NCBI GenBank assembly: GCA_017437045.1
Contig: JAFSBY010000002.1
Location: forward strand, 1 to 64,000
Origin: Alistipes sp.
Lineage (GTDB): Bacteria > Bacteroidota > Bacteroidia > Bacteroidales > Rikenellaceae
Length of the DNA stretch: 64,000 nt
Direction: 5' to 3'
The notes beneath the pieces are model-generated. The model was not told the origin of the DNA, did not search any database, and was given only the letters and a program-made list of their open reading frames with translations. Position numbers and translations under genes: made by a program. Of the stretch, positions 7,232 through 42,890 are shown in pieces (the stretch's first letter is position 1; each line of letters begins with the position of its first letter).

Positions 7232-8251
7232 ATGAAAATCGTAACTTTAGGTGAGATCATGCTGCGTCTCTCGACGCCGGGTAACACGCGTTTTGTTCAG
7301 TCGGATTCGTTCGACGTGGTGTATGGCGGTGGCGAGGCCAATGTGGCTGTCAGCTGCGCAAACTATGGCCATGAGGCCTATTTCGTGACGAAGCTGCCGA
7401 AGCATGAGATCGGCCAGTCGGCTGTCAATGCACTGCGTAAGTATGGTGTGAAGACCGACTTCATCGCTCGCGGTGGTGACCGTGTAGGTATCTACTTCCT
7501 CGAGACGGGTGCTTCGATGCGTCCCTCGAAGGTGATCTATGACCGCGCTCATTCGTCGATTGCCGAGGCTGATGTGGCTGATTTCGATTTCGATGCCATC
7601 ATGGAGGGTGCCGATTGGTTCCACTGGTCGGGTATCACGCCGGCTATCTCGGATAAGGCTGCCGAGCTGACGAAGTTGGCTTGCGAGGCTGCCAAGCGTC
7701 ACGGTGTTACGGTGTCGGTGGACCTGAACTTCCGCAAGAAGCTCTGGACCAAGGAGAAGGCACAGTCGATCATGCGCCCGCTGATGCAGTATGTCGATGT
7801 CTGCATCGGTAACGAGGAGGATGCCGAGCTTTGCCTGGGCTTCAAACCCGATGCTGACGTAGAGGGTGGCGAGACCAATGCTGAGGGCTACAAGGGTATC
7901 TTCACGCAGATGGCCAAGGAGTTTGGTTTCAAGTATGTGATCTCGACGCTGCGCGAGTCGTTCTCGGCTACGCACAACGGCTGGAAAGCTATGATCTACA
8001 ACGGTGAGGAGTTCTACGAGTCGAAGCGTTACGATATCAACCCGATCATCGACCGCGTAGGTGGTGGTGACTCGTTCTCGGGTGGTGTGATCCACGGCCT
8101 GCTGACCAAGCCCAACCAGGGTGAGGCTCTCGAGTTTGCTGTGGCTGCCTCGGCGTTGAAGCACACGATCAACGGCGACTTCAACCTCGTTTCGGTTGAG
8201 GAGGTAGAGTCGTTGGCCGGTGGTAATGCGAATGGCCGCGTACAGAGATAA
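7232..8251 (+). CDS. kdgK: 2-keto-3-deoxygluconate kinase
   Basis: Phosphorylates 2-keto-3-deoxygluconate (KDG) to KDPG with ATP, the fourth step from galacturonate. It is a PfkB-family kinase of 339 residues. The N-terminal signature YGGGEANVAVSCANYG and the C-terminal catalytic signature RVGGGDSFSGGV, with the base Asp near residue 280, are both present. It sits between uxaC and eda, which argues for KDG rather than another sugar as substrate. The stop codon lies inside the left arm of a structured repeat (8246-8368). Confidence 0.92.
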   Translation: MKIVTLGEIMLRLSTPGNTRFVQSDSFDVVYGGGEANVAVSCANYGHEAYFVTKLPKHEIGQSAVNALRKYGVKTDFIARGGDRVGIYFLETGASMRPSKVIYDRAHSSIAEADVADFDFDAIMEGADWFHWSGITPAISDKAAELTKLACEAAKRHGVTVSVDLNFRKKLWTKEKAQSIMRPLMQYVDVCIGNEEDAELCLGFKPDADVEGGETNAEGYKGIFTQMAKEFGFKYVISTLRESFSATHNGWKAMIYNGEEFYESKRYDINPIIDRVGGGDSFSGGVIHGLLTKPNQGEALEFAVAASALKHTINGDFNLVSVEEVESLAGGNANGRVQR

Positions 8252-8368
8252 TATGTCTAACGGGTGATTCCTACGTTACGCATCGCTCCGCAAATGCTCA
8301 CATACACCAGTATGCTGCGCTTTGCGGAGCTTGCAAGCCTTGAAATCCCCTCGTTATACCTATTATCT
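8246..8368 (+). repeat. Structured stop-codon element, copy 1
   Basis: The outer arms AGATAATATGTCTAACGGG (from 8246) and CCCCTCGTTATACCTATTATCT (to 8368) pair imperfectly. The inner stem is CTCCGCAAA/TTTGCGGAG. Conserved loops include CGTTACGC, TGCTCACATAC, AGTATGCTGCGC and GCAAGCCTTGAAATC. The kdgK stop codon is inside the left outer arm. Copies 2 and 3 at 12205 and 42770 have the same core but different stem sequences. Confidence 0.85.
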
Positions 8369-8373
8369 ATATT

Positions 8374-8409
8374 ATTCATTTTGAATTTTACATTCTAAAT
8401 TCTGCATTT
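8374..8409. repeat. AT-rich TTTGAATTTTACATTCTAAATT repeat
   Basis: A short run built from TTTTGAATTTT, ACATTCTAAATT and TCTGCATTT that recurs in this window (400-430, 580-610, 22027-22050, 23391-23473, 24865-24900, 25255-25290, 25410-25440, 25540-25565). It lies immediately before eda. Confidence 0.7.
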
Positions 8410-8414
8410 GCAAA

Positions 8415-9086
8415 ATGGCAAAATTTGATAAAATCGCCGTGATGAAGAAGATCGGCGAGACGGGTATGGTGCCCGTATTCTACCACAAGGACGTAGAGGT
8501 TGCCAAGAAGGTCGTGAAGGCTTGCTACGAGGGTGGTGTTCGCGCTTTCGAGTTCACGAACCGTGGTGACTTTGCACACGAGATTTTTGGTGAGTTGGTT
8601 AAGTGGGCAGCTGTTGAGTGCCCCGAGCTGGCGTTGGGTATCGGTTCGATCGTGGATGCTCCGACGGCTGCGCTCTATATCCAGCTGGGTGCTAACTTCA
8701 TCGTGGGTCCGCTCTTCAACCCCGAGATCGCTCCGGTTTGCAACCGTCGTTCGATTCCCTACTGCCCGGGTTGCGGTACGGTATCGGAGATTGGTAAGGC
8801 ACAGGAGTTGGGTTGCGACCTGACGAAGCTCTTCCCGGGTGATGTCTATGGCCCGAACATGGTGAAGGGTCTGATGGCTCCCTGCCCGTGGTCGAAGATC
8901 ATGGTGACGGGTGGCGTATCGCCCGACCGTGAGAATCTCACGTCGTGGTTCAAGGCCGGTGTCTATTGCGTAGGTATGGGCTCGAAGCTCTTCCCGGGCG
9001 ACAAGGTGAAGGCCGAGGATTGGGAGTATGTGACCAATAAGTGCCGCGAGTGCCTCGACATCATCGCTGAGATTCGTGCGAAGTAA
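8415..9086 (+). CDS. eda: 2-keto-3-deoxy-6-phosphogluconate aldolase
   Basis: Cleaves KDPG to pyruvate and glyceraldehyde 3-phosphate, the last step of galacturonate catabolism. It is a class I aldolase of 223 residues with a TIM-barrel fold. The Schiff-base lysine is probably K138 in TKLFPGD, and the proton-relay glutamate is E46 in RAFEFTNRG. The [24 protein letters not shown] and MVTGGVSP stretches are typical. The relatively long length suits the Bacteroidetes form, also called 4-hydroxy-2-oxoglutarate aldolase. It is followed 41 bp later by the hexuronate transporter. Confidence 0.95.
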
Positions 9087-9127
9087 TGCTTGAGAAAATC
9101 TAACCAAATTAACTGATAAACAACATT

Positions 9128-10720
9128 ATGCAAAACAATTCGAAGATGACGAACTGGCGTTGGTGGATGTGCTTGCTGCTGTTCGTTGCTACGACGGTCA
9201 ATTACCTCGACCGTCAGGTGCTTTCGCTGACGTGGAAGGACTTTATCGCTCCGGAGTTCCACTGGAACGATGATAACTATGGTACGATTACCGCCTTCTT
9301 CTCGATCTTCTATGCCTGCGCTTGCCTCTTTGCCGGTAAGTTCGTGGACTGGATGGGTACGAAGAAGGGCTTCTTGTGGGCCATTGGTGTTTGGTCGCTG
9401 GGTGCCTGTATGCACGCTGGTTGCGGCTGGGTGACCATGCAGATGGAGGGCATTGGCTCGGTAGCCGAGATGATTAAATTAACGGGTGATGCTGCTGTGG
9501 CTGTTGCTACGGTGAGTGTATGGCTCTTCTTGGTATGTCGTGGCATTTTGGCGTTGGGTGAGGCCGGTAACTTCCCCGCAGCCATCAAGGTGACGGCCGA
9601 GTACTTCCCCAAGAAGGACCGCGCGTTGGCAACCTCGCTCTTTAATGCAGGTGCTTCGGTTGGTGCTCTGGCAGCTCCGCTGACGATTCCGATTCTGGCT
9701 AAGGCTTGGGGTTGGGAGATGGCCTTTATTATCATCGGTGCACTGGGCTTTATCTGGATGTTCTTCTGGGTCTATATGTATGAGAAGCCTGAGAAGTCGA
9801 AGCATGTCAATAAGGCCGAGTTGGATTACATTCTCCAGGATGAGAAGGATGCTCCGAAGGCAGAGGCTGCAGCTACGGAGGAGAAGGCTATTCCTTTCAT
9901 GCAGTGCTTTGGTTACAAGCAGACCTGGTCGTTTATTGCCGGTAAGTTCCTTACTGACGGTGTATGGTGGTTCTATCTGTTCTGGGCTCCGGCTTACTTC
10001 TCGGAGATGGGTTACGGTATGGATACCACGTTGGGTAAGGTGTTGGTATTCGTACTCTATCTGATCGTGACGGTGATTTCGATCGGTGGTGGTTATCTGC
10101 CCAAGCTCTTTGTGGAGCAAAAGGGTATGGAGCCCTATGCAGGTCGTATGCGCGCCATGTTGATCTTTGCCTTCTTCCCGCTGTTGGCCCTCTTCGCTCA
10201 GCCGTTGCAGGATATCTCGATTTGGTTCCCCGCTCTTATCATCGGTATTGCCGGTGCGGGTCACCAGGCTTGGTCGGCTAATATCTTCTCGACCACGGGT
10301 GATATGTTCCCCAAATCGACCATTGCTACGATTACGGGTATTGGTGCCATGGCTGGTGGTATCGGTTCGTTCCTGATCAACAAGGGCGCTGGTATGCTCT
10401 TCACGAAGGCTGCCGGTGCATTCACTATGCCTGGTAATGATACGGTTTATGAACTTTCGACCAAGTCGATCACAGACGTCACGGGTGTTGCGTATCTGCG
10501 ACCCGAGGGCTTGACCTCGAATGAGGTGACAAAGGCTATGGTAGATAAAGTTCAGGAGATCGGTGGTACGATCGTCGAGGCTCCGATGGAGGCACTCGGT
10601 TTCGAGGGCAAGCCCGCCGGTTATATGATCATCTTCTGCATCTGTGCCGTGGCTTATCTGCTGGCTTGGTGCATCATGAAGTCGCTCGTGCCGAAGCACA
10701 AGCCGATCGTGGTTAAATAA
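9128..10720 (+). CDS. MFS hexuronate transporter, ExuT-like
   Basis: Inner-membrane proton symporter, probably for galacturonate or glucuronate, of the anion:cation symporter branch of the MFS. The N-terminal membrane segment contains VNYLDRQVLSL, a motif typical of ExuT, and the GEAGNFPAAIK motif marks the fourth segment. At 530 residues it is about 100 longer than E. coli ExuT. The extra length comes from a loop of about 35 residues near residue 100-135 and a loop of about 70 residues before the last segment (FTMPGNDTVYEL to GFEGKPAGY). Flanked by eda and uxaB, so the substrate assignment follows context. Confidence 0.9.
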   Translation: MQNNSKMTNWRWWMCLLLFVATTVNYLDRQVLSLTWKDFIAPEFHWNDDNYGTITAFFSIFYACACLFAGKFVDWMGTKKGFLWAIGVWSLGACMHAGCGWVTMQMEGIGSVAEMIKLTGDAAVAVATVSVWLFLVCRGILALGEAGNFPAAIKVTAEYFPKKDRALATSLFNAGASVGALAAPLTIPILAKAWGWEMAFIIIGALGFIWMFFWVYMYEKPEKSKHVNKAELDYILQDEKDAPKAEAAATEEKAIPFMQCFGYKQTWSFIAGKFLTDGVWWFYLFWAPAYFSEMGYGMDTTLGKVLVFVLYLIVTVISIGGGYLPKLFVEQKGMEPYAGRMRAMLIFAFFPLLALFAQPLQDISIWFPALIIGIAGAGHQAWSANIFSTTGDMFPKSTIATITGIGAMAGGIGSFLINKGAGMLFTKAAGAFTMPGNDTVYELSTKSITDVTGVAYLRPEGLTSNEVTKAMVDKVQEIGGTIVEAPMEALGFEGKPAGYMIIFCICAVAYLLAWCIMKSLVPKHKPIVVK

Positions 10721-10753
10721 GCAAAAAAGTATCTCTTAAATAACGCAAACAAA

Positions 10754-12208
10754 ATGATTCAGAAACTCAATAAATCGACCGTAGAGAAGGTCGAGCGTCC
10801 TGTAAAGATCCTTCAGTTTGGTGAGGGTAACTTCCTGCGTGCTTTCGTAGATTGGCAGATCGACATCGCCAACGAGAAGGGCGTGATGAATTCGGGTGTG
10901 GCTATCTGCCAGCCGATCATCGACCCCGAGAAGAAGGTGCTGAAGATGATCGAGATGCTCAACGAGCAGGACAACATGTACCACGTATACCTCGAGGGTA
11001 TCGAGAACAAGCAGCCCAAGAAGGATGTGCGCATGGTCAAGAGCGTGATGGATTCGTTCAACCCCTATGAGGAGTATGCCAAGTATGAACAGTATTTCCT
11101 CTCGCCCGAGCTTAAGATCACGATTTCGAACACGACCGAGGCCGGTATCCGCTACGAGGAGGGTGACGATCTGACGGCTTGCCCGCCGAAGTCGTATCCC
11201 GCCAAGATGACGGCTTTGCTCTACAAGCGATTCAAGCACTTCAACGGCGATCCGGAGAAGGGTCTGGTGATCATCTGCTGCGAGCTGATCGAGAACAACG
11301 GTTCGACGCTGCATGAGTATGTGATCAAGCATGCCGAGTACCACAAGCTGGGTCAGGACTTCATCGACTGGGTAGAGGCTAACTGCCACTTCTGCGATAC
11401 GTTGGTGGACCGCATCGTTCCGGGCTTCCCGCGCGATACGATCAACGAGATCAAGGAGGAGGTCGGCTTCGACGATAACCTCGTAGTGAAGGCCGAGTTG
11501 TACCACCTGTGGGCTATCGGTGGTCCGGGCTACAAGAAGGTGATGGAGGAGCTGCCGCTCGATAAGGCAGGTCTGCACGTGATCTTCATGCCCTCGATCA
11601 AGCAGTTCCGCGACAAGAAGGTGCGCATCCTGAATGGTTCGCACACCGGTATGGTGACGATGGCTCTGTTGATGGGTTGCGAGACGGTGATGGATGCCTT
11701 CAATACGCCCGATATCGAGAAGTTCGTAAACGACATGGTTGCCGAGGAGGTGATCCCGATGATCGAGGAGGATCAGGAGGAGCTGAAGGCCTTCGCATCG
11801 AGCATCCTGGAGCGTTTCTACAACCCCTATATCAAGCACATGCTGAAGTCGATCTCGCTCAACTCGCTCTCGAAGTGGGAGGCTCGCAACTATCCGACGG
11901 TCAAGGACAACTGGTTCAAGGCCGGCAAGGTAGCCGAGCACGAGTGCATGACCTTCGCTGCCCTGATGGCTTACTACAGCCCGAAGAGCGGTTTCGAGCC
12001 CGATGATACGGCCGAGTTCGTGGCCTACATCCGCGAGAACTGGAATTCGGAGGATCTGGAGGGTACGGTAGCCAAGATCGTCAAGGAGAGCGGTATCTTC
12101 ACCGTGGACTTCTCGGAGGTTCCGGGCTTCATCCCCGCTGTTGCCAAGTATCTGAAGGATATCGAGGAACTGGGTATGGCTGCAGCCCTGAAGAAGTTCC
12201 TGGCCTAA
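10754..12208 (+). CDS. uxaB: Tagaturonate reductase UxaB
   Basis: NADH-dependent reduction of D-tagaturonate to D-altronate, the second pathway step. The 484-residue protein belongs to the polyol-specific long-chain dehydrogenase family. It has an N-terminal Rossmann region starting KILQFGEGNFLRAFVDW and the mannitol-dehydrogenase C-domain with the catalytic-lysine segment around KVRILNGSHTG. The SNTTEAGIRY segment is also typical. It could be fructuronate reductase UxaD/UxuB instead, but the neighbouring uxaA supports the altronate route. Its stop codon abuts the second structured element. Confidence 0.93.
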   Translation: MIQKLNKSTVEKVERPVKILQFGEGNFLRAFVDWQIDIANEKGVMNSGVAICQPIIDPEKKVLKMIEMLNEQDNMYHVYLEGIENKQPKKDVRMVKSVMDSFNPYEEYAKYEQYFLSPELKITISNTTEAGIRYEEGDDLTACPPKSYPAKMTALLYKRFKHFNGDPEKGLVIICCELIENNGSTLHEYVIKHAEYHKLGQDFIDWVEANCHFCDTLVDRIVPGFPRDTINEIKEEVGFDDNLVVKAELYHLWAIGGPGYKKVMEELPLDKAGLHVIFMPSIKQFRDKKVRILNGSHTGMVTMALLMGCETVMDAFNTPDIEKFVNDMVAEEVIPMIEEDQEELKAFASSILERFYNPYIKHMLKSISLNSLSKWEARNYPTVKDNWFKAGKVAEHECMTFAALMAYYSPKSGFEPDDTAEFVAYIRENWNSEDLEGTVAKIVKESGIFTVDFSEVPGFIPAVAKYLKDIEELGMAAALKKFLA

Positions 12209-12326
12209 ATTTTTGCGTGGGTAATTTCTGCGTTACGCTTGCTGCTCAACTGCTCACATACAAACAGTATGCTCCGCGTTGAGCCTCTGCGCAAGCCTTG
12301 AAATTCCCTCCCGCAAATAATTTAAG
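12205..12326 (+). repeat. Structured stop-codon element, copy 2
   Basis: The outer arms CCTAAATTTTTGCGTGGG and CCCTCCCGCAAATAATTTAAG pair across the element, with GTAATTTC/GAAATT next to the core. The inner stem is GCTCAAC/GTTGAGC. Loops CGTTACGC, TGCTCACATAC, AGTATGCTCCGC and GCGCAAGCCTTGAAAT are shared with copies 1 and 3. The uxaB stop codon (12206-12208) is in the left arm. Confidence 0.85.
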
Positions 12327-12344
12327 CTCATAAGATGTTCAATC

Positions 12345-12384
12345 GAGGGGCGAGTGCCACGCAAGCGCACATCGCCCCTCTTTT
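12345..12384 (+). terminator. Terminator between uxaB and uxaA
   Basis: GAGGGGCGA (12345-12353) and TCGCCCCTC (12372-12380) form a 9-bp GC-rich stem followed by TTTT. It suggests that uxaA and the pectinase genes either have their own promoter or receive only read-through from uxaC-uxaB. Confidence 0.8.
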
Positions 12385-12413
12385 GCTAAACCCTGAAAAC
12401 ACAAACTTTTGAG

Positions 12414-13907
12414 ATGAAAAGATTTCTGAAAATCAATGCTGTCGATAATGTGGCAGTAGCCATCGCTGATGATCTGAAGGCCGGCGAGGTGGTGGAGATC
12501 GACGGTCAGGCGATCACGCTGTTGGAGGATATCACCCGTGGCCATAAGTTCGCCTTGCGCGACATTGCCCAGGGTGAGAATGTCATCAAATATGGTTATC
12601 CGATCGGTCACGCCACCGAGGAGGTGAAGCAGGGTGGCTGGATTCACTCGCATAACCTCAAGACCAATCTGCACGATAACCTGGAGTACACCTACGACCA
12701 TAAGAGCTATACGATCGACTACCCGAAGCGGGACGATCTGAAGGTGATGGGCTATCTGCGCAAGAACAATACGATGGGTATCCGCAACGAGTTGTGGATC
12801 GTGCCGTCGGTGGGTTGCGTCAATGGTCAGGCACAGGCGATTGCCGAGCGCGTGAAGCGTGAGTGCGACTGCTCGCATCTGGACGACGTACGTGTCTATA
12901 CGCACAACTACGGCTGTTCGCAGCTGGGCGAGGACCATGCCAATACGCAGCATGCGTTGGCTGCGCTGGTGAAGCACCCGAATGCCGGTGCGGTGCTGGT
13001 GCTGGGTCTGGGTTGCGAGAACAACCAGATCGCCTCGTTCAAGGAGGTGATCGGCGAGTGGGACGAGGAGCGTGTGAAGTTCCTCATCGCCCAGGAGGTC
13101 GAGGATGAGATCGCAACGGGCTTCGAGATCTGCAAGGAGCTGGTCGAGAAGACGCGCGAGGATAAGCGCGAGCCGCTGCCGTTGAGCTACCTGCGTGTCG
13201 GTCTGAAGTGTGGTGGTTCGGATGGCTTCTCGGGCATCACGGCCAACCCGCTGGTGGGTCTGTTCTCGGACTGGCTCATCGCGCAGGGAGGTACGACGAT
13301 CCTGACGGAGGTGCCGGAGATGTTCGGTGCCGAGACGATCCTGATGGACCGTGCCATCAACAAGGAGGTCTTCGAGAATACGGTCTGCCTGATCAACGAT
13401 TTCAAGGGCTACTTCCGCAAATACGATCAGCCGATCTACGAGAACCCCTCGCCGGGTAACAAGAAGGGTGGCATCACGACGCTCGAGGAGAAGTCGCTCG
13501 GTTGCGTACAGAAGGGTGGTGCCCAGCAGGTAGTCGATGTGTTGAGCTACTGCCAGCCGATCGTCAAGAATGGTCTGAATCTGTTGCAGGCTCCGGGTAA
13601 CGACCTGGTTGCCGCCTCGTCGCTCGCTTTGTCGGGTTGCCAGATTGTCCTCTTCACGACGGGTCGTGGTACGCCGTTTGGTGCCTTTGTGCCGACGATG
13701 AAGATCTCGACCAACACGCAGCTCTCGCAGTTCAAGGCCAACTGGATCGACTTCAATGCCGGTACGATGGTCGAGGATGAGGAGCCGCAGGTGGTGCTGG
13801 AGCGTCTGATCGAGAAGATCATCGCTACGGTCAATGGTGAGCCGCTGAAGCACGAGAAGACGGGCTTCAAGGAGATCGCTATCTTCAAAACGGGTGTGAC
13901 CCTTTAA
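12414..13907 (+). CDS. uxaA: Altronate dehydratase UxaA
   Basis: Dehydrates D-altronate to 2-keto-3-deoxygluconate; an iron-dependent enzyme. The 497 residues comprise an N-terminal SAF domain (about residues 5-90, with GHKFALRDIAQGENVIKYG) and a C-terminal dehydratase domain. The latter includes GYLRKNNTMGIRNELWIVP, RTHNYGC-type and GLKCGGSDGFSGITANP motifs, with cysteines likely to bind the metal. It overlaps the pectinesterase reading frame region by a few bases at the 3' end, so translation is likely coupled. It could be mistaken for galactarate dehydratase, but the pathway context fits UxaA. Confidence 0.95.
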   Translation: MKRFLKINAVDNVAVAIADDLKAGEVVEIDGQAITLLEDITRGHKFALRDIAQGENVIKYGYPIGHATEEVKQGGWIHSHNLKTNLHDNLEYTYDHKSYTIDYPKRDDLKVMGYLRKNNTMGIRNELWIVPSVGCVNGQAQAIAERVKRECDCSHLDDVRVYTHNYGCSQLGEDHANTQHALAALVKHPNAGAVLVLGLGCENNQIASFKEVIGEWDEERVKFLIAQEVEDEIATGFEICKELVEKTREDKREPLPLSYLRVGLKCGGSDGFSGITANPLVGLFSDWLIAQGGTTILTEVPEMFGAETILMDRAINKEVFENTVCLINDFKGYFRKYDQPIYENPSPGNKKGGITTLEEKSLGCVQKGGAQQVVDVLSYCQPIVKNGLNLLQAPGNDLVAASSLALSGCQIVLFTTGRGTPFGAFVPTMKISTNTQLSQFKANWIDFNAGTMVEDEEPQVVLERLIEKIIATVNGEPLKHEKTGFKEIAIFKTGVTL

Positions 13908-13921
13908 TGCCCCTTGAGCCG

Positions 13922-14899
13922 ATGAAACGATTGCTCTATGCGGCGTTGCTGCTGGTGGGATGCCAGAGTGCGCCCAAGACGGAGTGGGTGGTCGATTGCA
14001 ACGGCGGAGGAGATTTTACGAGCGTTCAGGAGTGTCTGGACGCTCTTCCTTCCAAGCCGACCACGTGGCGTACGGTGACGATCAAGGAGGGTACCTATCA
14101 AGAGAAGGTGACCGTGGATGTCTATAAGGATAAGTTGCACATCGTGGGCGAGGGTGATGTACGCATCGTCTGGGACGACCACTCGGGTAAGACGGTCGAT
14201 GGCTACACGATGTCCACCTACGATTGTTGGACGATGTCGGTGCAGGCCGATGAGGTGTGGATGGAGAACCTGACGATCGAGAACTCGGCAGGCCGTGTGG
14301 GTCAGGCCGTAGCTCTTGAGACGCGTGGCGACCGCATCCGCATCGAGAATTGCCGCCTGCTGGGCAACCAGGATACCTTCTTCACGAAGGATTACGTGGC
14401 CCGCATCTACGTCAAGGACAGCTACATCGAGGGTACGTGTGATTTTATCTTCGGCGCCTCGACTACGGTCTTTGACAACTGCGAGATTCACTGCAAGCAG
14501 AACAGCTACATCACGGCAGCCTCGACGGCCGAGCGTACGATCTATGGCTACATCTTCCGCAACTGCCGCATCTCGACGGCTCCCGAAGTGACGGCCATGT
14601 ACCTGGGTCGCCCCTGGAAATCGACCGGTCGCACGGTCTGGATCGAGTGCTACATGCCCGAGCAGATTCGCCCCGAGGGGTGGCACAACTGGGGCGCGAA
14701 GGATCGCGAGGAGCGTTCGTTCTATGCCGAGTATAAGTGCTACGGTCCGGGTGCCGATCGCTCGAAGCGCGTGCCTTGGTCGCATGAGCTGACCGACGAG
14801 CAGGCTGCTGACTACACCCTGGAGAAGATTTTTGCTATCAAGGTCGGCTCGGAGCAATACCGCTGGCCGTGGGATGGAACCTTTAACCTGAACGAATAA
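13922..14899 (+). CDS. Pectinesterase, lipoprotein
   Basis: Removes methyl esters from homogalacturonan, exposing it to polygalacturonase. Carbohydrate esterase family 8 beta-helix of about 325 residues. A lipobox (LLLVGC, C14) predicts surface or periplasmic anchoring. The catalytic motifs are all present: GNQDTFF near residue 150, the EGTCDFIFGAS segment with the nucleophilic Asp near 173, and YLGRPWK with the substrate-binding Arg near 230. ATG 13907 is also in frame, overlapping the uxaA stop, but ATG 13922 gives the cleaner signal peptide. Confidence 0.94.
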   Translation: MKRLLYAALLLVGCQSAPKTEWVVDCNGGGDFTSVQECLDALPSKPTTWRTVTIKEGTYQEKVTVDVYKDKLHIVGEGDVRIVWDDHSGKTVDGYTMSTYDCWTMSVQADEVWMENLTIENSAGRVGQAVALETRGDRIRIENCRLLGNQDTFFTKDYVARIYVKDSYIEGTCDFIFGASTTVFDNCEIHCKQNSYITAASTAERTIYGYIFRNCRISTAPEVTAMYLGRPWKSTGRTVWIECYMPEQIRPEGWHNWGAKDREERSFYAEYKCYGPGADRSKRVPWSHELTDEQAADYTLEKIFAIKVGSEQYRWPWDGTFNLNE

Positions 14900-16542: not shown

Positions 16543-16567
16543 GGTAGAGGGCGATCCGTCCCATTAC

Positions 16568-34112: not shown

Positions 34113-34129
34113 TGTAAAGCAGCAAACAC

Positions 34130-35149: not shown

Positions 35150-36864
35150 TGGCAAATTTCTTTCTTGATAATACAGATCTGCAACTGCAGTTGGAGCATC
35201 CGCTGATGGAGCGACTCCTGGAGTTGCGCGAACGCGGCTATGCCGAGCGGGAGCAGTATGATTTTGCTCCCCAAGATTTTGACGATGCGATGGATTCGTT
35301 GCGTCGTGTGATGGAGTTGGCCGGTGAGGTGTGTGGCGAGACGTTGGCCGCCAATGCCGAGTCGGTGGATCGTGAAGGTCCTCACCACGAGGGGGATCGG
35401 GTGCGTTATGCCTCGGGTACGGTCGAAAATCTGGCTGCTTTCCATGCCGCCGGGTTGGATGGTATGGCTCTGCCGCGTCGTTTTGGCGGTCTGAACCTGC
35501 CTTTGTTGAGTTCGATCATGGTCAATGAGATGATCGCCCGTGCCGATGCCGGTTTCCAGAATGTCTGGGGACTGCAGGATTGTGCCGAGACGCTCAATGA
35601 GTTTGGCTCGGAGGAGCAGAAGGCCAAATACCTCCCCATGACGGTCGAGGGTGCTACCTGGTCGATGGCCCTGACCGAGCCGGATGCCGGATCGGATTTG
35701 GGTGCCGTGATGTTGAAGGCTGCGTGGTCCGAGGAGCGCGGATGTTGGTTGCTCAACGGCGTGAAACGCTTCATTACGAATGGTGACGGCGATCTGTCGT
35801 TGGTGCTGGCACGCACGGAGGAGGGTACGACCGATGCACGCGGTCTGTCGATGTTTGTCTATGACAAGCGCAATGGCGGCGTGAAGGTGCGTCGTATCGA
35901 GCATAAGCTGGGTATTAAGGGCTCGCCGACGTGTGAATTGGTCTATCAGGATGCACCGGCCGAATTGGTCGGAGATCGTCGGATGGGTCTGATCAAATAT
36001 GTCATGTCGCTGATGAATGCTGCCCGTCTGGGTATTGGTGCACAGTCGGTCGGTACGTGTGAGGCGGCCTACCGCGAGGCGGTGAAGTATGCCGGTGAGC
36101 GTGAGCAGTTTGGCAAGCCGATCATCCGCTTTACGGCCGTGGCCGAGCTCTTGCAGCAGATGAAGGCCAAGACGCAGGCCGTGCGCACGTTGCTCTACGA
36201 GACGGCCCGTTTTGTCGAGATTTACAAGGCACTGGCAGCCATCAGCAAGGAGCGCGCGCTGGAGAGTGAGGAGCGTCAGGAGATGAAGTTCTACAATCGA
36301 CTGGCCGATGGCTTCACGCCGCTGTTGAAGCTCTTTGCGTCGGAGTATGCCAATCAGTTGGCCTACGATGCCATCCAGATTCATGGTGGCTCGGGCTTTA
36401 TGCAGGACTATCCGTGTGAGCGAATCTACCGCGACGCCCGCATCATGAGTATCTATGAGGGAACCTCGCAGTTGCAGGTCGTAGCGGCCATCAATGGCGT
36501 GACCAAAGGTACCTTCTTGGAGCAGATCGAACGCTATGCTACGGCCGCATATAGCGAGCCGATGCAGTCGCAGGTGGCCTCGTTACAGCGACTCACCGAG
36601 CAGCTGCGTGCGATGATCGAGCGCGTCGAGACGCTAGACAAGGCGTGTGCAGGCTATAAGGAGCTGCATGCCCGTCGTCTGGTTGAGTCGGTCGGCTACA
36701 TTGTGATGGGCTATCTGTTGGTGCGTCAGGCAAGCCTCCATCCGGAGGTCTATGCCGATTCGGCACAGGTGTTCTGCCGCTTGGCCGAGGGTAAGGTTGC
36801 CGAGGCAGCCGCAACGATTGCCGCCTCACCCGTGGAGGATGTGGCCTTATACCAGATGGCGTAA
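35149..36864 (+). CDS. Acyl-CoA dehydrogenase
   Basis: FAD-dependent oxidation of an acyl-CoA, passing electrons to the adjacent EtfBA. The 571 residues include the typical ACAD signatures WSMALTEPDAGSDLG, GVKRFITNGDGDLS, HKLGIKGSPTCELVYQD and the C-terminal YANQLAYDAIQIHGGSGFMQDYPCERIYRDARI. About 100 extra C-terminal residues correspond to the longer bacterial branch. Substrate chain length is unknown. In anaerobes such operons often serve butyrate-like or amino-acid fermentation in the reducing direction, but that is inference. Confidence 0.93.
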   Translation: MANFFLDNTDLQLQLEHPLMERLLELRERGYAEREQYDFAPQDFDDAMDSLRRVMELAGEVCGETLAANAESVDREGPHHEGDRVRYASGTVENLAAFHAAGLDGMALPRRFGGLNLPLLSSIMVNEMIARADAGFQNVWGLQDCAETLNEFGSEEQKAKYLPMTVEGATWSMALTEPDAGSDLGAVMLKAAWSEERGCWLLNGVKRFITNGDGDLSLVLARTEEGTTDARGLSMFVYDKRNGGVKVRRIEHKLGIKGSPTCELVYQDAPAELVGDRRMGLIKYVMSLMNAARLGIGAQSVGTCEAAYREAVKYAGEREQFGKPIIRFTAVAELLQQMKAKTQAVRTLLYETARFVEIYKALAAISKERALESEERQEMKFYNRLADGFTPLLKLFASEYANQLAYDAIQIHGGSGFMQDYPCERIYRDARIMSIYEGTSQLQVVAAINGVTKGTFLEQIERYATAAYSEPMQSQVASLQRLTEQLRAMIERVETLDKACAGYKELHARRLVESVGYIVMGYLLVRQASLHPEVYADSAQVFCRLAEGKVAEAAATIAASPVEDVALYQMA

Positions 36865-36884
36865 AGAGGTGTTCCTCGAAACGA

Positions 36885-36924
36885 AAGGGGCTGTCCAACC
36901 GAAATGTTGTGACAGCCCCGTTTT
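36885..36924 (+). terminator. Terminator after the ETF operon
   Basis: GGGGCTGTC (36887-36895) and GACAGCCCC (36911-36919) with a nested CAAC/GTTG pair, followed by GTTTTG. Same family as 4425-4466. Confidence 0.8.
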
Positions 36925-36929
36925 GTTGG

Positions 36930-37853
36930 TTATTGTTGTTGGCGGTAGGTCGAAGGCGACATGCCGGTGTGTTGTTTGAAGTATTTGCCAAAGAAGGATT
37001 GGTTGGGGAAGCTGAGCCGATAGGCCACCTCCTGAATGCTCAATCCGGAGTATTTGAGCAGGTATTTGGCCTCCATCAAGATATACCGATTCATCCAATC
37101 GGTGACTGAAAGGCCGCTCACACGACGCACTATGGTGGTCAGATAGCGCGAGGAGATGCAGAGCCGATCGGCATACCAGGTGACGCTTTGACGCTCGAGG
37201 TAGTGCTCCGAGAGGGCTTGGATGAAGTTGCGGAAATACTCCTCGGCACGGGCTGTAGTGTGGCTCTTCGTGCCCTTTTCGGTGGCAATATGCTCCATGA
37301 AGAGGTCGAGGCAGAGATAGGTGGTCGCCTCCACCATCGAGCGGATCACCTCATCGCCAAACTCCGAGTTGCTGAAGGCGCGAATGTGTTGTTGCAGCAA
37401 CGTCAGTGTGCCGGTCAGACGGCCGGCCTCCTCATCGGAGAGGTGGATGATGCCCTGCTCCATGATGGTCATCATCACCTGCATGAGTTTTTTGAGGTTG
37501 AGGTTGCATTCGGCCATATAGCTCTGGTCGAGCATCAGCACCCACCCTTCGAAACTGCTCTCATCGTGTGAGCGGGTGTTGGTGCTGGCGTCGATGATCG
37601 TGCGGGGCGGGATGACCATCAGACTGTTCGACTCGATGGTGAACTCACGCTGATTGCACATGGCGCGACTCGACCCGTGGGTACAGAACAGAAAGAGGAT
37701 GGCATCGACACGCAGCGGATCCTCGATCAACAGGCGTTGTTGCCCGATCTGACTTTGTCCGATCAAAATACCTTTATGGACGGCGATATGTGCCGGTTTT
37801 GCATACTTTTGTATCCCAGCAATGGAGAGACTTTCGATCTTATATTCTGACAT
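36930..37853 (-). CDS. AraC-family transcriptional regulator
   Basis: A DNA-binding regulator of 307 residues. The N-terminal two-thirds resemble a cupin-like sensor (AIDASTNTRSHDESS region, residues about 20-190). The C-terminal 100 residues form the two helix-turn-helix motifs: ISSRYLTTIVRRVSGLS, then IQEVAYRLSFPNQSFFGKYF with the family hallmark and HTGMSPSTYRQQQ end. It is convergent with the ETF operon and divergent from the phosphoesterase gene, so it might control the latter. The ligand is unknown. Confidence 0.92.
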   Translation of the reverse strand: MSEYKIESLSIAGIQKYAKPAHIAVHKGILIGQSQIGQQRLLIEDPLRVDAILFLFCTHGSSRAMCNQREFTIESNSLMVIPPRTIIDASTNTRSHDESSFEGWVLMLDQSYMAECNLNLKKLMQVMMTIMEQGIIHLSDEEAGRLTGTLTLLQQHIRAFSNSEFGDEVIRSMVEATTYLCLDLFMEHIATEKGTKSHTTARAEEYFRNFIQALSEHYLERQSVTWYADRLCISSRYLTTIVRRVSGLSVTDWMNRYILMEAKYLLKYSGLSIQEVAYRLSFPNQSFFGKYFKQHTGMSPSTYRQQQ

Positions 37854-37881
37854 GTTTGAACAGTTTTCGTCTGTTTGGGTG

Positions 37882-37889
37882 CAAAGGTA
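37882..37889 (-). promoter_or_regulatory. -7 box for the AraC gene
   Basis: TACCTTTG on the minus strand lies 28 bp ahead of the start codon. The -33 is not clear. Confidence 0.5.
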
Positions 37890-38060
37890 TGCCCTTTTCG
37901 GGAGAAATAAAGGGCTTTTTTGTCTATTTGTTGGTCAAAATGTACACAAACACTATAAACCTACTCAAATCTAAAGATAGAACAAAATAGAGTACTTTTA
38001 GACCAGCTTTGCCGTGTTTTGTGATTTGGTAAATCAGAATGAAAGTGAGACCTTTGCACC

Positions 38061-38870
38061 ATGAAAAGGACTAAATGTGTTATGAAGAGACTCTTCTGGG
38101 TGCTTTTTGCATGGCTGGGAGTAGGGTGTACGACCGAATATCATCCCTACGACACCCATGTCAAAGGGGAACATAATATCAATCCTACACATATTCAACT
38201 CATCGAAAAACAGTATGCCGGCAAGCAGGAATTGCGCTTTGCAGTCATCAGCGATACCCAACGCTGGTATGATGAGACGGAGGATGCTGTGGAGGAGATC
38301 AACGAACGTACGGATATTGATTTTGTGCTCCATACGGGCGATCTGACCGATTTCGGTGCCCGCAAAGAGTTTGAGTTGCAGCGCGATATACTGAATCATC
38401 TGCGTGTGCCCTATGTGGCCTTGATCGGCAACCACGACTGCATTGCCACGGGGCGCACGATCTATCGCAAGATTTTTGGCGACTACAACTTTGCCTTTAC
38501 GGCCGGTTCGGTGCGTTTTATCTGTCTGAATACCAACTCGCTCGAATGTGGTGAGGGGCAGCCCGATTTGGCCTTTATGGAGCAGGAGCTGCGCACCTTC
38601 CCTGAGGGGGTGACAAAGACCATTGTGGCCTTCCATGCCGCCCCTTGGTCTGAGCAGTTTGATCCGGAGTTGGTCGAGCCGTTTGCACGCCTGGTGGCGA
38701 GCTATCCGGGGGTGCAGTGCTGCATCTATGGCCACGGCCACCATTTCGGGGAGGATATTCCGTATGAGGATGGGATTCCCTATATCCAATGTGGCAATAT
38801 CGAGAAAGAGGCCATGTTGATTTTTACGGTTGATGAATCGGGATTTAGCTATGAGAAGGTGGATTTTTAA
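38061..38870 (+). CDS. Calcineurin-like metallophosphoesterase lipoprotein
   Basis: An exported phosphoesterase of about 269 residues, with a lipobox (AWLGVGC) near residue 23. The metal-binding motifs run in order: AVISDTQ, HTGDLTDFG, LIGNHDC, VAFHAAP and IYGHGHHFG, all five blocks of the superfamily. It could act on nucleotides, phospholipids or phosphodiesters. ATG 38061 or ATG 38082 are both possible starts; the second gives a shorter signal peptide. The next gene begins inside its 3' end. Confidence 0.88.
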   Translation: MKRTKCVMKRLFWVLFAWLGVGCTTEYHPYDTHVKGEHNINPTHIQLIEKQYAGKQELRFAVISDTQRWYDETEDAVEEINERTDIDFVLHTGDLTDFGARKEFELQRDILNHLRVPYVALIGNHDCIATGRTIYRKIFGDYNFAFTAGSVRFICLNTNSLECGEGQPDLAFMEQELRTFPEGVTKTIVAFHAAPWSEQFDPELVEPFARLVASYPGVQCCIYGHGHHFGEDIPYEDGIPYIQCGNIEKEAMLIFTVDESGFSYEKVDF

Positions 38871-39507
38871 GTGGTCGCTTGCGGGGCTGCTGATGGTCGT
38901 TGCCTCGTCGCTCTATGCACAGTTGCCCGATTCGCTGTCGCGGGGCAGGGAGTATCGTACCGATCCCTCGTACGAAGGGTGGAGCCGTCTGATCCCGACC
39001 CACGTCAAGGGTCAGTATGCCGGCGGCCTGGGTGTAGCCTCGGTGGGCTTGGGCTGGGATTATGGCCGACATGCCCAATGGGAGACCGATCTGATGGCAG
39101 GGTGGTTGCCGGCCGAGTATTCCGACCATACGCGCTTTATCTTTGCACTGAAACAGCATTATATCCCCTGGCAGTTGCGGCTGCATAGTCGTTGGTCGGT
39201 GGACCCGCTCACGTGTGGTTGCTATTTCAGTGTGATCACGGGTGACAACTTCTGGATCGAGGAGCCGAGTATCTATGGCGGCAGCTATTACCGTTTCCCG
39301 TCGCGCCTGCGTGCCTATATCTATGTAGGGCAGCGTCTGACGTATCACATCAAGCGACCGGAATCGACCCTGCGCAGCATCACCTTCTTCTATGAGTTGA
39401 GTGCCTGCGATTTGGCACTGGTCTCGAAGGGCACGAACAAGTCGCTCGAGTGGACGGATGTCTTCACCTTTTCGTGTGGCGTGAAATTCCATCTCTTCAA
39501 GCCCTAA
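38851..39507 (+). CDS. Predicted outer-membrane beta-barrel protein
   Basis: 218 residues with a signal peptide ending in SSLYAQ. The mature part alternates hydrophobic and aromatic residues (AGGLGVASVGLGWDYG, YYRFPSRLRAYIYVGQRL) and ends in a strand with a basic aromatic terminus (GVKFHLFKP), as expected for a small outer-membrane barrel. I do not recognise the family. It starts 20 bp inside the phosphoesterase gene, so the two are translationally coupled and probably work in the same envelope compartment. Confidence 0.65.
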   Translation: MRRWIFKWSLAGLLMVVASSLYAQLPDSLSRGREYRTDPSYEGWSRLIPTHVKGQYAGGLGVASVGLGWDYGRHAQWETDLMAGWLPAEYSDHTRFIFALKQHYIPWQLRLHSRWSVDPLTCGCYFSVITGDNFWIEEPSIYGGSYYRFPSRLRAYIYVGQRLTYHIKRPESTLRSITFFYELSACDLALVSKGTNKSLEWTDVFTFSCGVKFHLFKP

Positions 39508-39528
39508 AAAGTAGGCTTACGGTCAAAA

Positions 39529-39590
39529 GAGGTTGAATAAAACGTTGTATTCTTGACAAAATACACGTTTTATTCAACCTCTCGTTTTTT
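39529..39590. terminator. Bidirectional terminator
   Basis: GAGGTTGAATAAAACG and CGTTTTATTCAACCTC form a 16-bp stem with an inner TGTAT/ATACA pair, followed by TCGTTTTTTTT. It separates two convergent genes. Confidence 0.85.
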
Positions 39591-39606
39591 TTGGGGGCGG
39601 CAATCG

Positions 39607-41073
39607 CTACTTCTCCCAGTGGAACGGTGCAAAGTCGGCCGCAGCCTGCGCATCGCGCCACGAGGGCTTACGCATGGCATAGATGATCAGCGGAATGACC
39701 ACGACAACCACGCAGCCGATGATGAGCACCGAGTACCACACCGTCTTACTGCCGGTGGCAATCTGTGCAGGGGGCACGAAGCTCAACACGAAGGCCAGCA
39801 GTGCTCCGGCAAAGCCCAGCAGGGCCAGCAGCCACATCAAGCCGTTGCCTTGGCCGATGCGGAAGGGTCGCGGGGTATCCTTCATCTTGTAGCGCAAGAC
39901 GATGGCGGCCGAGAACATCAGCATGTACATGATCAGATAGAGCAACACGGTGAGTTGCGAGAGAATCTGATAGAACGACTGCACCGAGGGCATTACGACA
40001 AAGAGCAGTGACAGGAGGGTGACGATGCAACCCTGGATGAGCAGGATGTTGCGCTGCACTCCGGCCTTGTTGGCTCGCTGGAAGAAGGGAGGCAGGTAGC
40101 CCGCCTTGCCGACGGCATAGATACCGCGCGAGGGGCCTGCGACCCACGTCAGCACACCGGCCAAGACGCCAAACATCAGGGCGATGGCGATGATCGGCTT
40201 GGCCCACGAGAGGTGCAGATACTCAAAATAGCGGTCGAAGCCCACCAAGAGCGATTGCGTGAGGTTGATCTCGTTCGAGGGGATGATCAGACCCAGTGCA
40301 AAGGTTCCCAAGATGAAGATTGAGACGGTCATCAAGGCACCGATAATAATAGCACGCGGATAGTTGCGCGCCGGATTTTTGACCTCCATGACGTGGATAC
40401 CCATCATCTCCATACCGGCATAGAAGAGGAAGATGCTGCTGGCTAACACCAAGTTGTCGAAATGATTCAGATCGGGAAAGAAACTCTGGTGCATGTTCAT
40501 CTGATTCTGGCCGCCCGTCATCAGGTAGATCACGCCCATGACGATCAACAGCCCGGCCGGAATAATCGTGCCGATCATACCGCCCCATTTCGAGACCTTG
40601 CCGACCCACGAAAGACCCTTCAGGGCGACCAGCGTGGCGATCCAATAGATGGCCAGTACGACCACGATCGTGAAGAATTTGTTGGAGGCCAACGCCATGT
40701 CGTGCTGTTGGTTCATGCCGATAAAGGCGATCGAAACAGCACCGAAGGTGAGTACGGTGGGGTACCAGATGGTCGATTGGATCCATTGCAGGAAGATCGC
40801 CAAAAAACCGGCTCGGGCACCGAAGGCTTCGCCCACCCAACGAAATACGCCGCCCTGCTTATCCGAGAACATGGCTGCCAACTCGGCTGCAACCATGGCC
40901 GTCGGAATCAGAAAGACGATGGCGGCAAACAGATAATAGAAGGCCGACGAGAGTCCATATTCGGCCTCGGCCGCCAATCCTCGCAGACTGACCACCGCCG
41001 TGACATTCATGATGGCGAGGGTCATTACGCTCAATTTGAACCCCTTTGATGAGGTCGTTTTCTTTGTCTCCAT
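39607..41073 (-). CDS. APC-family amino acid antiporter, GadC-like
   Basis: Inner-membrane amino-acid exchanger of 488 residues with about twelve membrane segments. The start KLSVMTLAIMNVTAVVSLRG and the segment FSDKQGGVFRWVGEAFG resemble glutamate/GABA antiporters. No decarboxylase gene is adjacent, so the exchanged pair cannot be fixed. A role in acid resistance, as for GadC, is inference. Other APC members (YjeM-like) are a possible alternative. Confidence 0.82.
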   Translation of the reverse strand: METKKTTSSKGFKLSVMTLAIMNVTAVVSLRGLAAEAEYGLSSAFYYLFAAIVFLIPTAMVAAELAAMFSDKQGGVFRWVGEAFGARAGFLAIFLQWIQSTIWYPTVLTFGAVSIAFIGMNQQHDMALASNKFFTIVVVLAIYWIATLVALKGLSWVGKVSKWGGMIGTIIPAGLLIVMGVIYLMTGGQNQMNMHQSFFPDLNHFDNLVLASSIFLFYAGMEMMGIHVMEVKNPARNYPRAIIIGALMTVSIFILGTFALGLIIPSNEINLTQSLLVGFDRYFEYLHLSWAKPIIAIALMFGVLAGVLTWVAGPSRGIYAVGKAGYLPPFFQRANKAGVQRNILLIQGCIVTLLSLLFVVMPSVQSFYQILSQLTVLLYLIMYMLMFSAAIVLRYKMKDTPRPFRIGQGNGLMWLLALLGFAGALLAFVLSFVPPAQIATGSKTVWYSVLIIGCVVVVVIPLIIYAMRKPSWRDAQAAADFAPFHWEK

Positions 41074-41136
41074 CCTTTTTTGTGTAGATTTGTTTTACGC
41101 TCGGAGAAAAAATACAACTACCGTGCAAAAAATTTG

Positions 41137-41144
41137 TATCTTTG
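41137..41144 (+). promoter_or_regulatory. -7 box for DUF5106 gene
   Basis: TATCTTTG lies just 4 bp before ATG 41149, so that the start would be leaderless or nearly so. This position supports ATG 41149 rather than an upstream frame start. Confidence 0.55.
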
Positions 41145-41148
41145 CTCT

Positions 41149-42096
41149 ATGAACCATTTTTGTAAGATGATTGTGGCCTTTTTGGCCCTGGGAGCGATCG
41201 CTTGTGGCGGTGCAGGCAGTGCATCGAAGCCGGCTAAAGCGGAGGCAGCAGTGGAGAAGCAGCCCCGCAAACCGTTGTTGCATCAGTTTCAACCTCCGCA
41301 GCCCCCCATACACCTCGATCGGGAGGGACAACTCGAATATCTGCTGACCCACTTCTGGGACGGATTCGACTTTGCGGATACGGCCGGTTTGGCAACCATC
41401 GACACGGCCGTGATGCTGCAACGCATGGGTCTTTTTGGGGCGTTGGCCGCCCAGCGGCCGCTCGATCGGGCTCCGATCGATCGTCTGATGCGTCGAGCGA
41501 CCACCTCGCGCCCGATGCTCGACCTGTTCCTCTACCTCTCCGAAATGGTCTTTCATGATCCCAACTCTCCGCTACGCAACGACGAACACTACATTCCGAT
41601 CCTGGAGGCGCAACTATCGACCGATTTCTATGACGAGTATGAGCGCATAGCCCCCGAGTATGACCTGCACTTGGCACGTCAAAACCGGATCGGCCACCGA
41701 GCCAATGATTTCCGCTATGCAACCGCCGATGGTCGCCGTCGCTCGCTCTATGATCTACAGGCCGATTATGTGCTCCTCTTCTTTAATAATCCCGATTGCG
41801 CCATGTGCAAGGAGTTGCGCGAGCAGATCGGCCAATCGCCGAGACTCACCGAGTTGATCGCCTCGGGACGTATGCGGGTCTTGGCCCTCTATCCCGACGA
41901 GGACCTGACCGCTTGGAAGGCCTACCAGCCCAATATCCCCGCCTCGTGGATCAACAGCTACGATCCGGGTTGTCGCATTCGGGAGGAGAATCTCTATAAC
42001 CTCAATGCCATCCCCTCGCTCTACCTGCTTGATCGCCAGAAAAAGGTCTTGGTCAAGGATGCCGCCTCGATCGCCGAGATCGAACAAGGACTATAA
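41149..42096 (+). CDS. DUF5106/thioredoxin-like lipoprotein
   Basis: 315 residues with a lipobox (ALGAIAC). The helical region (about residues 50-170) resembles DUF5106, and a thioredoxin-like domain follows with YVLLFFNNPDCAMCKELREQIG, containing a CxxC variant CAMC near residue 222. The usual cis-Pro strand appears as NAIPSLYLLD. It could reduce or chaperone envelope proteins. Starting at 41149 places the signal peptide at the N-terminus; the longer frame to 41080 would precede the promoter. Confidence 0.82.
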   Translation: MNHFCKMIVAFLALGAIACGGAGSASKPAKAEAAVEKQPRKPLLHQFQPPQPPIHLDREGQLEYLLTHFWDGFDFADTAGLATIDTAVMLQRMGLFGALAAQRPLDRAPIDRLMRRATTSRPMLDLFLYLSEMVFHDPNSPLRNDEHYIPILEAQLSTDFYDEYERIAPEYDLHLARQNRIGHRANDFRYATADGRRRSLYDLQADYVLLFFNNPDCAMCKELREQIGQSPRLTELIASGRMRVLALYPDEDLTAWKAYQPNIPASWINSYDPGCRIREENLYNLNAIPSLYLLDRQKKVLVKDAASIAEIEQGL

Positions 42097-42139
42097 GTTT
42101 TGCTTATGGAACTATAAGGAAATAGAATTGCTAAAAACG

Positions 42140-42169
42140 TTGTAATTCCGCTCAAATGTGTTATCTTTG
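42140..42169 (+). promoter_or_regulatory. Rubrerythrin promoter
   Basis: TTG at 42140-42142 and TATCTTTG at 42162-42169, spaced 19 bp, a near-perfect Bacteroidetes promoter 53 bp ahead of the start codon. Confidence 0.8.
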
Positions 42170-42222
42170 TAGACGGAAACAGAATACAACACACATTTAA
42201 TAACATAAAAACAGCAAAGATT

Positions 42223-42771
42223 ATGGCAAAGAAATTCCGTTGTACCGTATGCGGTTACATTCATGAGGGTAACGAGGCTCCCGAGCAGTGCCCGTTGTGC
42301 AAGGTTGGTGCAGAGAAGTTTGTGGAGGTCGTTGAGGACGGCGCACTCGATTTCGTAACCGAGCATAAGCTGGGTGATGGCAAGGGTTCGGATGCCGAGT
42401 TGTGGCAGGGTCTGCAGGACCACTTCATGGGCGAGTGCACCGAGGTGGGTATGTATCTGGCTATGAGCCGTCAGGCCGATCGTGAGGGCTATCCCGAGAT
42501 CGCCGAGGCCTTCAAGCGTTATGCCTGGGAGGAGGCTGAGCATGCTGCCAAGTTTGCCGAGCTGATCGGTGAGGTGGTATGGGACACCAAGACCAACCTC
42601 TACAAGCGTATGAACGCCGAGTGTGGTGCTTGCGAGGGTAAGATGCACCTGGCCAAGATCGCCAAGGAGCAGAACCTTGACGCCGTTCACGACACCGTTC
42701 ACGAGATGGCCAAGGACGAGGCTCGTCACGGGAAGGGTTTTGAGGGGTTGTATAACCGCTACTTCAAATAA
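42223..42771 (+). CDS. Rubrerythrin, rubredoxin domain first
   Basis: Reduces hydrogen peroxide in anaerobes. The 182 residues carry an N-terminal rubredoxin-like domain with two CxxC knuckles (CTVCGY and CPLCK, residues about 6-28). The ferritin-like diiron domain follows, with glutamates in [30 protein letters not shown] and [13 protein letters not shown]. The domain order is the reverse of classical rubrerythrin. The stop codon lies at the edge of the third structured element. Confidence 0.93.
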
Positions 42772-42890
42772 AAATCCGTCTGATGGACGATTTCGGCGTT
42801 ATGCTTGAGGCGAAAATGCTCACATACGCATAGTATGCTCCGCTTTTCGCCTCTGCGCAAGCCTTGAAATCGTCTCATCATACGAATTTT
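42770..42890 (+). repeat. Structured stop-codon element, copy 3
   Basis: The outer arms AAAAATCCGTCTGATGGACG and CGTCTCATCATACGAATTTTT pair over more than 20 positions. The inner stem is GAGGCGAAAA/TTTTCGCCTC. Core loops CGTTATGC, TGCTCACATAC, AGTATGCTCCGC and GCGCAAGCCTTGAAATC match copies 1 and 2. It begins at the rubrerythrin stop codon and ends in a T-run, so could terminate transcription. Confidence 0.87.

Follow-up and report, generated by a model that had tools for sequence, protein, structure and literature searches.

What are the three long palindromes that stand at the ends of a kdgK gene, a uxaB gene and a rubrerythrin gene in a 64,000-nucleotide stretch of an Alistipes sp. genome (GCA_017437045.1, contig JAFSBY010000002.1, positions 1 to 64,000; hereafter the window), and why do their stems pair so well while differing so much in sequence? 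A preliminary description, made from the letters of the window, had proposed a family of structured elements and had listed termination and REP-like mobility among its possible roles. We find that the three copies are members of a large, apparently unnamed family of hairpin-forming repeats of about 120 bases, unnamed in the sense that a search of the open-licence literature returned no description of it; a text search for the letters of the core returned papers that were unrelated by title, among the matches listed. The best reading of the element's behaviour is one that resembles miniature inverted-repeat transposable elements (MITEs) and the YPAL repeats. We give a probability of roughly 0.55 to its being a mobile element that is non-autonomous, moved by an enzyme supplied in trans, and held to its fold; in form it is a long, imperfect palindrome of some 120 bp, the ends of which are fixed.

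The covariance-model search that the preliminary description had suggested as a check bears out a dispersed family. The model was built from 35 Rikenellaceae copies (alignment A2) chosen by eye from 103 representatives of 137 copies, with the more divergent Rikenellaceae forms excluded. Applied to the 2.2-Mb genome to which the window belongs, it gave 43 matches at E ≤ 0.1, 40 of them at E < 1e-5, nine of the 35 model copies being from this genome and so matching by construction; the exact apex pattern occurs here 11 times and its reversed form 0 times. Among the 41 genomes scanned at E ≤ 1e-4, 18 of the 25 from the genus carry copies (2 to 87 each) and seven carry none, and 6 of the 16 from other families of the order have matches (1 to 6 copies); at most 90 candidates were scored per genome, so that the high counts are lower bounds. 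The copies in the window and their surroundings are as follows.

8246..8368, plus strand: copy 1, full hairpin, with the kdgK stop codon (8249-8251) within the left arm; model match G000:C8:8248-8363, E 1.7e-23
8295..8316, plus strand: copy 1 apex core, pattern match
12206..12324, plus strand: copy 2, full hairpin, the left arm beginning with the uxaB stop codon (12206-12208); model match E 1.2e-25
12251..12273, plus strand: copy 2 apex core, pattern match
42770..42891, plus strand: copy 3, full hairpin, the left arm having the rubrerythrin stop codon (42769-42771) at its foot; model match E 2.3e-31
42817..42839, plus strand: copy 3 apex core, pattern match
12345..12380, plus strand: separate terminator-like hairpin 3' of copy 2
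42899..42927, plus strand: separate terminator-like hairpin 3' of copy 3
42967..43005, plus strand: fragment of copy 3 (right half), lying within a duplicated block
44992..45030, plus strand: fragment of copy 3 (right half), lying within a duplicated block
7232..8251, plus strand: host gene 1, pfkB-family sugar kinase (kdgK; Pfam PF00294)
10754..12208, plus strand: host gene 2, mannitol dehydrogenase family (uxaB; Pfam PF01232/PF08125)
42223..42771, plus strand: host gene 3, rubrerythrin (Pfam PF02915/PF21349)

Each copy folds as one long hairpin. RNA folding gives -49.8, -39.2 and -53.9 kcal/mol for copies 1, 2 and 3 (z -8.1, -5.0 and -8.5 against shuffles), and in DNA folding every copy beats shuffled sequence on either strand (z -4.0 to -8.5). 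The outer arm, which contains the stop codon or abuts on it, forms the outermost layer and is followed in many copies by a helix GATTTC/GAAATC; next comes a middle internal loop with CGTT on its left side and GCCTT on its right, and inside this loop the inner stem, which leads through an upper internal loop, TCA/CTCC (or CTGC), to the apex, a 5-bp stem CATAC/GTATG closed by a short loop. The pattern TGCTCACATACN{2,12}GTATGCT has exactly three matches in the window, where 0.00 are expected (100 shuffles), and this count and a re-reading of the sequence confirm the three copies at the places first reported. The open reading frames (ORFs) of the three host genes end at 8251, 12208 and 42771, in or at the foot of a left arm, in agreement with the earlier placement of the copies at or near these stop codons, and the inner stems are as they had been given. 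Other details needed correction: of the core loops described as conserved, GAAAT (with ATTTC) proved to be a covarying helix; the outer arms, called entirely different, do differ, but 11 of the 43 copies in this genome share the start GT[CAT]T[AG]A; and the apex too covaries in other copies, with TCCTCA..CTCCGG for TGCTCA..CTCCGC and TTTAC/GTAAA for CATAC/GTATG. Rfam gave no match at the three window copies at E up to 1, and in 12 loci from other groups it gave none at the element at the gathering score. When the strands are folded singly as DNA, the minus strand of all three copies (8243-8369, 12203-12326 and 42769-42893) is more stable than the plus strand by 3.5 to 6.8 kcal/mol.

The covariation read from three copies held when it was tested on many, in sets from the genus and in copies from beyond Rikenellaceae. 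In the 35-copy alignment, 85.1% of cells pair against 63.9% in shuffles, 264 cells are changed on both sides against 93.4, and the covariation score is 0.512 against 0.152, with slid controls at 0.130 or below. The 78 distinct model-aligned copies of the genus score 0.573 against 0.157 in shuffles, in an alignment fitted to the model and therefore biased towards it; there the GC and CATAC apex pairs also vary in compensated fashion (helices 3 and 4). For 68 copies from beyond Rikenellaceae, aligned with MAFFT and free of the model, the score over eight inner pairs is 0.567 against 0.221, and one slid version reached 0.446, probably because of A and T runs. A further measure, the number of further standard pair types, showed no excess over shuffles in any of the three alignments.

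In the genus, the element tends to sit between a stop codon and a terminator. In 24 of the 43 copies of the window's own genome, the left end falls between -20 and +28 relative to the stop codon of an ORF in the same sense. Of the 19 others, ten stand second or later in tandem pairs or arrays, and at the remaining nine no same-sense ORF was called, a spanning or opposite-sense ORF being found instead; these may reflect shadow ORFs or true exceptions. The right end is near an opposite stop only once, at an antisense shadow ORF 17 nt from copy 2. Among matches in 100 fetched loci, 39 of 69 left ends in Rikenellaceae fall between -30 and +40 relative to a sense stop, whereas only 1 of 69 right ends is near an opposite stop, and in other groups the figures are 26 of 65 and 13 of 65; the ORF caller picks some antisense shadow ORFs, and these counts are therefore rough. 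Placement at stop codons is thus non-random, as first proposed, and the outcome named at that time as speaking against a family (these copies alone, no covariation and random placement) did not occur.

A hairpin of -15 kcal/mol or below with a T-rich tail follows within 170 nt on the 3' side of 26 of the 43 copies, copies 2 and 3 included; shuffles give 2.0, and a control taken from the coding stretch upstream gives 1 of 43. These separate hairpins tell against termination as the main role, one of the functions suggested at the outset, and make it very unlikely that the element is itself an intrinsic terminator or attenuator. Some outer arms do run from an A run to a T run (copy 3, and C13:34225 and C44:8849 of the same genome), as such a function would have it, yet a T run directly follows the hairpin in some copies only, and copy 1 has none and is followed by a gene on the same strand. 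In the genome G011, a shared form of terminator has 23 matches, 14 preceded by the element and nine without it; these terminators (L338-L360) are a dispersed sequence family in their own right (GGGGATGGCTAAAATAC..).

The same placement raises the possibility, which we regard as worth serious attention though improbable, of a cis-acting RNA element in the 3' untranslated region (3'-UTR), selected separately at each host gene. It would be a hairpin beginning at the stop codon, would shield the 3' end of the mRNA or influence ribosomes as they terminate, and would owe its spread to past mobility. The sense placement at stop codons in the genus is what such an element would show, and the terminator-like hairpins 3' of 26 of 43 copies imply that the element is probably transcribed. 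The looser placement in other groups, with 26 left against 13 right ends, does not fit so well.

Comparison of orthologous genes shows that the element can persist as its stems turn over in compensated pairs. In stem alignments fitted to the model, double-compensated and single changes number 13 and 3 for the C39 pair, 12 and 3 at the C24:83393 site, 12 and 2 at the C33 site and 10 and 3 at the C40 site, all diverged pairs; the remaining pairs have between 0 and 4 double changes and between 1 and 4 single ones, among them the copy in the window and that of L219 at kdgK, with three of each. In G020 and G024, 7 of the 20 copies fetched are found at the 3' end of genes that have, in the window's genome, an orthologue with a copy of its own, where chance would give about 2% (an estimate from about 33 loci of this genome in a total of some 1,900 genes). 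L304, which BLAST gave as an eighth match, was discarded for a mismatched upstream flank, and the uxaB and kdgK copies are outside the 20. At the uxaB site, 17 of 18 matches have a readable 3' flank, with the element in five (the window and L201-L204) and absent from 12, the intergenic DNA of the element-free genomes not being alignable with confidence. At the kdgK site, 27 of 28 loci (218-245) are readable; by eye, the element is in four (the window, L219, L222 and L224), one of them decayed, and another long palindrome is in four more (L220, L221, L223 and L231).

Persistence at orthologous genes with compensated stems, as in the kdgK pair, would suit a 3'-UTR element selected gene by gene; that close relatives have at these same genes either no element or another palindrome would not. 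The turnover itself reflects either fast compensation or replacement of copies in place. At uxaB, L201 and L203 hold a different variant within the same outermost arms as the window and L202, which favours replacement or conversion at that site.

The second palindrome family, with the apex GGGCAGTAC..GTACAGCCC, takes the place of the element after kdgK in L220, L221 and L223. It has four apex copies in the window's genome (G000:C32:104328-104615 and G000:C31:7940), three of them in tandem at 132-bp spacing, and L231 holds a diverged relative, the stems of which, by eye, seem to covary as well.

Several observations suggest that the element moves. In G011, 15 loci share a near-identical 120-bp unit, GAGGCTGAATAAAAAG...CTTTTTCTTCAACCTC, whose ends, GAGG..CCTC, are constant and whose left flanks differ, and these near-identical copies with fixed ends show that the element was amplified recently; such a burst is not expected of a 3'-UTR element selected at individual genes. 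Its presence at the uxaB site in 5 of 17 readable genomes and its tandem arrays with a period of about 125 bp point the same way. In G077, a Legionella genome, there are 57 occurrences of the end GGTTCTGTGCACTTATC with two mismatches or fewer, many as inverted pairs 125 apart, and TA was seen by eye at both borders of the copies inspected, so that these copies resemble classical MITEs in inverted ends and TA borders. More generally, the element is short (about 120 bp), non-coding and multicopy (43 copies in the window's genome, 15 near-identical in G011), and its complementary ends serve as terminal inverted repeats. The same genome G077 has a short palindrome made of two element ends with the middle deleted (L314), and also three solitary ends, at each of which about 190 nt were inspected.

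These features would also suit an ordinary MITE without any structural requirement, the arms of which are kept complementary by template switching during replication. Such quasipalindrome correction, in which one arm is corrected from the other, is consistent with the MITE-like anatomy and TA borders in Legionella and with the excess of double over single changes in the diverged orthologues (13 against 3, 12 against 3 and 12 against 2). Under such correction, however, the mismatches inside the hairpin should vanish too. The loops that contain them are nevertheless met again in different groups: at least 116 stretches have the core, and CGTT and GCCTT, which lay outside the key used to find those stretches, recur as well. 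We consider this account unlikely.

Repetitive extragenic palindromes (REPs) and REPINs, moved by the Y1 transposase RAYT, offer another precedent, in that REPs and the CGTC repeats are dispersed extragenic palindromes that lie mostly downstream of genes (PMC3733652). They are, however, 20-40 bp long, far short of about 120 bp, carry the end tags GTAG or CGTC and depend on RAYT, whereas the RAYT domain PF01797 is found in 0 of the 25 genus genomes, including those with up to 87 copies, and in 13 of the 16 genomes of other families. RAYT is therefore not the mover in the genus, and membership among the REPs is extremely unlikely. A REP-like mobile element was nonetheless the best of the roles first suggested, although the REP enzyme is absent from the genus. 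The end sequences vary between hosts (GAGG.., GAAG.., GGTTCTGTGCAC.., GAACCTGTTCA..), which suggests that different transposases may serve different hosts.

The family also extends far beyond the order. An exact pattern with 22 fixed bases, TGCTCACATACN{3,7}GTATGCTCCGC, was found in at least 116 stretches from several phyla, where by our arithmetic about 0.15 matches are expected by chance in the 257-billion-base collection. Among the matches listed, the carriers, as judged by record title, include Alistipes and other Rikenellaceae, Yersinia, Vibrio, Legionella, Edaphovirga, Nitrosomonas, Desulfobacteraceae, Myxococcales, an alphaproteobacterium, Listeria newyorkensis, Clostridia and an Anaerolinea; many of these records are metagenome assemblies, in which stray contigs are possible, and named strains are also present (Yersinia rohdei, Vibrio tasmaniensis, Legionella feeleii, Edaphovirga cremea, Nitrosomonas eutropha and Listeria newyorkensis). 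The preliminary description, right about family membership, had missed this sharing of the core across phyla. As the apex was the search key, its invariance in distant copies follows by construction. Outside the key, CGTT is present in 36 of 68 left flanks from beyond Rikenellaceae (13.1 in shuffles) and GCCTT in 34 of 68 right flanks (9.4 in shuffles), and the covariance model, run on 100 of the at least 116 stretches, gave 134 matches at E ≤ 0.01, some of them away from the exact core (for example L060:582-696).

Carriage by phages or plasmids was considered and rejected: viral_contigs gave no match, and a gammaproteobacterial copy as query matched 1 of 72,556 plasmid records and 1 of 50,697 records of a phage collection, the latter a 39-base partial match in a 691-kb Salmonella record. 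A Yersinia copy as query matched none of 20,395 E. coli records.

In integron attC sites, structure is kept while stem sequence varies, and unpaired bases matter. By analogy, all of these copies might belong to a single cross-phylum family in which a recombinase or transposase reads the folded strand through a few unpaired bases, as integrases read attC, so that the stems are free to change in pairs and the element works in unrelated bacteria, having become in Rikenellaceae a module of the mRNA 3' end; we put this forward as a tentative and rather doubtful extension. The likeness to attC is one of working only. The sites carry R''/R' boxes, which by eye are not conserved in the element, and identity with attC was rejected.

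Does the fold act as DNA or as RNA? Selection on the transcript should lead G.U to be tolerated above A.C, and we counted such mismatches at pairs that are at least 75% Watson-Crick. The genus set (A4) has 28 G.T and 27 A.C, the mixed set (A3) 43 and 60, and the 35-copy alignment 9 and 14; a small control of 13 tRNAs from the same loci has 7 and 0 (Fisher p 0.015 against A4). The near-equality in the genus, set against the tRNAs, counts for the mobile, fold-dependent reading; it is also as expected for an ordinary MITE and lacks the G.T excess that a 3'-UTR RNA would lead one to expect.

For a mobile, fold-dependent palindrome, we envisage an enzyme or host factor that would read the fold together with the conserved unpaired positions (TCA/CTSC near the apex, CGTT/GCCTT in mid-element), in which case drift of the stems may be tolerated provided that the two arms change in step. 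The fold would act somewhat more probably as single-stranded or extruded DNA than as RNA. As a by-product, the mRNA of the host gene would gain a strong hairpin in its 3'-UTR, owing to which sense copies beside stop codons may persist.

A number of observations weigh against this interpretation. The L224 copy at kdgK keeps a good inner stem although its loops have decayed, which selection for loop recognition does not predict and template switching does. Retention at the same genes looks like a host function, and the sense orientation at Rikenellaceae stop codons is unexplained by simple DNA transposition. By eye, the G011 copies have no consistent target duplication, and no transposase was found, RAYT being excluded and no search for other enzymes made. 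Further, the 68 copies of other groups have 41 G.T against 21 A.C (p 0.015), and the four apex-adjacent pairs in 191 copies have 25 against 9 (61 against 52 over all nine pairs), both leaning towards RNA, and this excess beyond Rikenellaceae speaks for a 3'-UTR element. As related sequences are not independent, we read the wobble evidence as neutral in the genus and mildly RNA-like elsewhere. The original proposal of selection for RNA or DNA structure is sound as to covariation, with selection on RNA unsupported in the genus and mildly favoured in other groups.

YPALs reportedly lie close after stop codons and overlap terminators, according to a 2006 paper, and insertion just after stop codons is a trait that the present element has too. 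YPAL/RU-2 is, like the element, a multicopy palindrome, and, at about 168 bp, a longer one; in the cited passages, it has many intergenic copies, its targets span or adjoin dyad symmetry, it is thought to affect RNA stability (PMC2229807, PMC2759123, PMC2267715), and the hosts named are Yersinia and Erwinia, with three copies in E. coli (table of PMC2847712). Identity was rejected, as the printed 168-nt RU-2 sequence (table 1b of PMC2759123) lacks the core by eye. QMITE2 of Coxiella burnetii is described as a strong hairpin with full (about 190 bp) and short forms, copies of which overlap gene ends by 1-10 bp, kdgK included, and with direct repeats of 7-9 bp; the cited text names relatives in alphaproteobacteria and one gammaproteobacterium only (PMC5896051). 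By this description, it resembles the element in hairpin, full and short forms and overlap of gene ends. Kristensenii39 and Aldovae3 are Yersinia repeats of 142 and 154 bp, found de novo, with eight and seven copies in Y. rohdei (PMC2847712), which also carries the element (L048); the likeness is one of size and host. By description, these two and QMITE2 could be relatives.

Rearranged copies were also seen. Tandem arrays with a period of about 125 bp occur in the window's genome and in L065, and at G000:C43:77203-77319 and 94682-94798 the second members of two pairs have, by eye, a left arm fused to another repeat (..GCGGTCTTTGCRCTCGGCTTAATCGCAACCTT..), as if by template switching. In the window, an exact 90-nt direct repeat (42914-43003 and 44939-45028), consisting of the terminator and the right half of copy 3, brackets about 1.9 kb with a DUF4377 protein (43661-44467), and inner repeats of 134 and 55 nt are also present.

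Descriptions of small palindromic repeats usually concern a single genus, and the copies resemble one another in sequence. The present family, in contrast, has the same 22-base core in several phyla, and the stems around it are different yet still pair. This combination makes the family a test bed for the recognition of mobile elements by shape, for transfer between distant bacteria and for the effect of a hairpin at the stop codon on mRNA.

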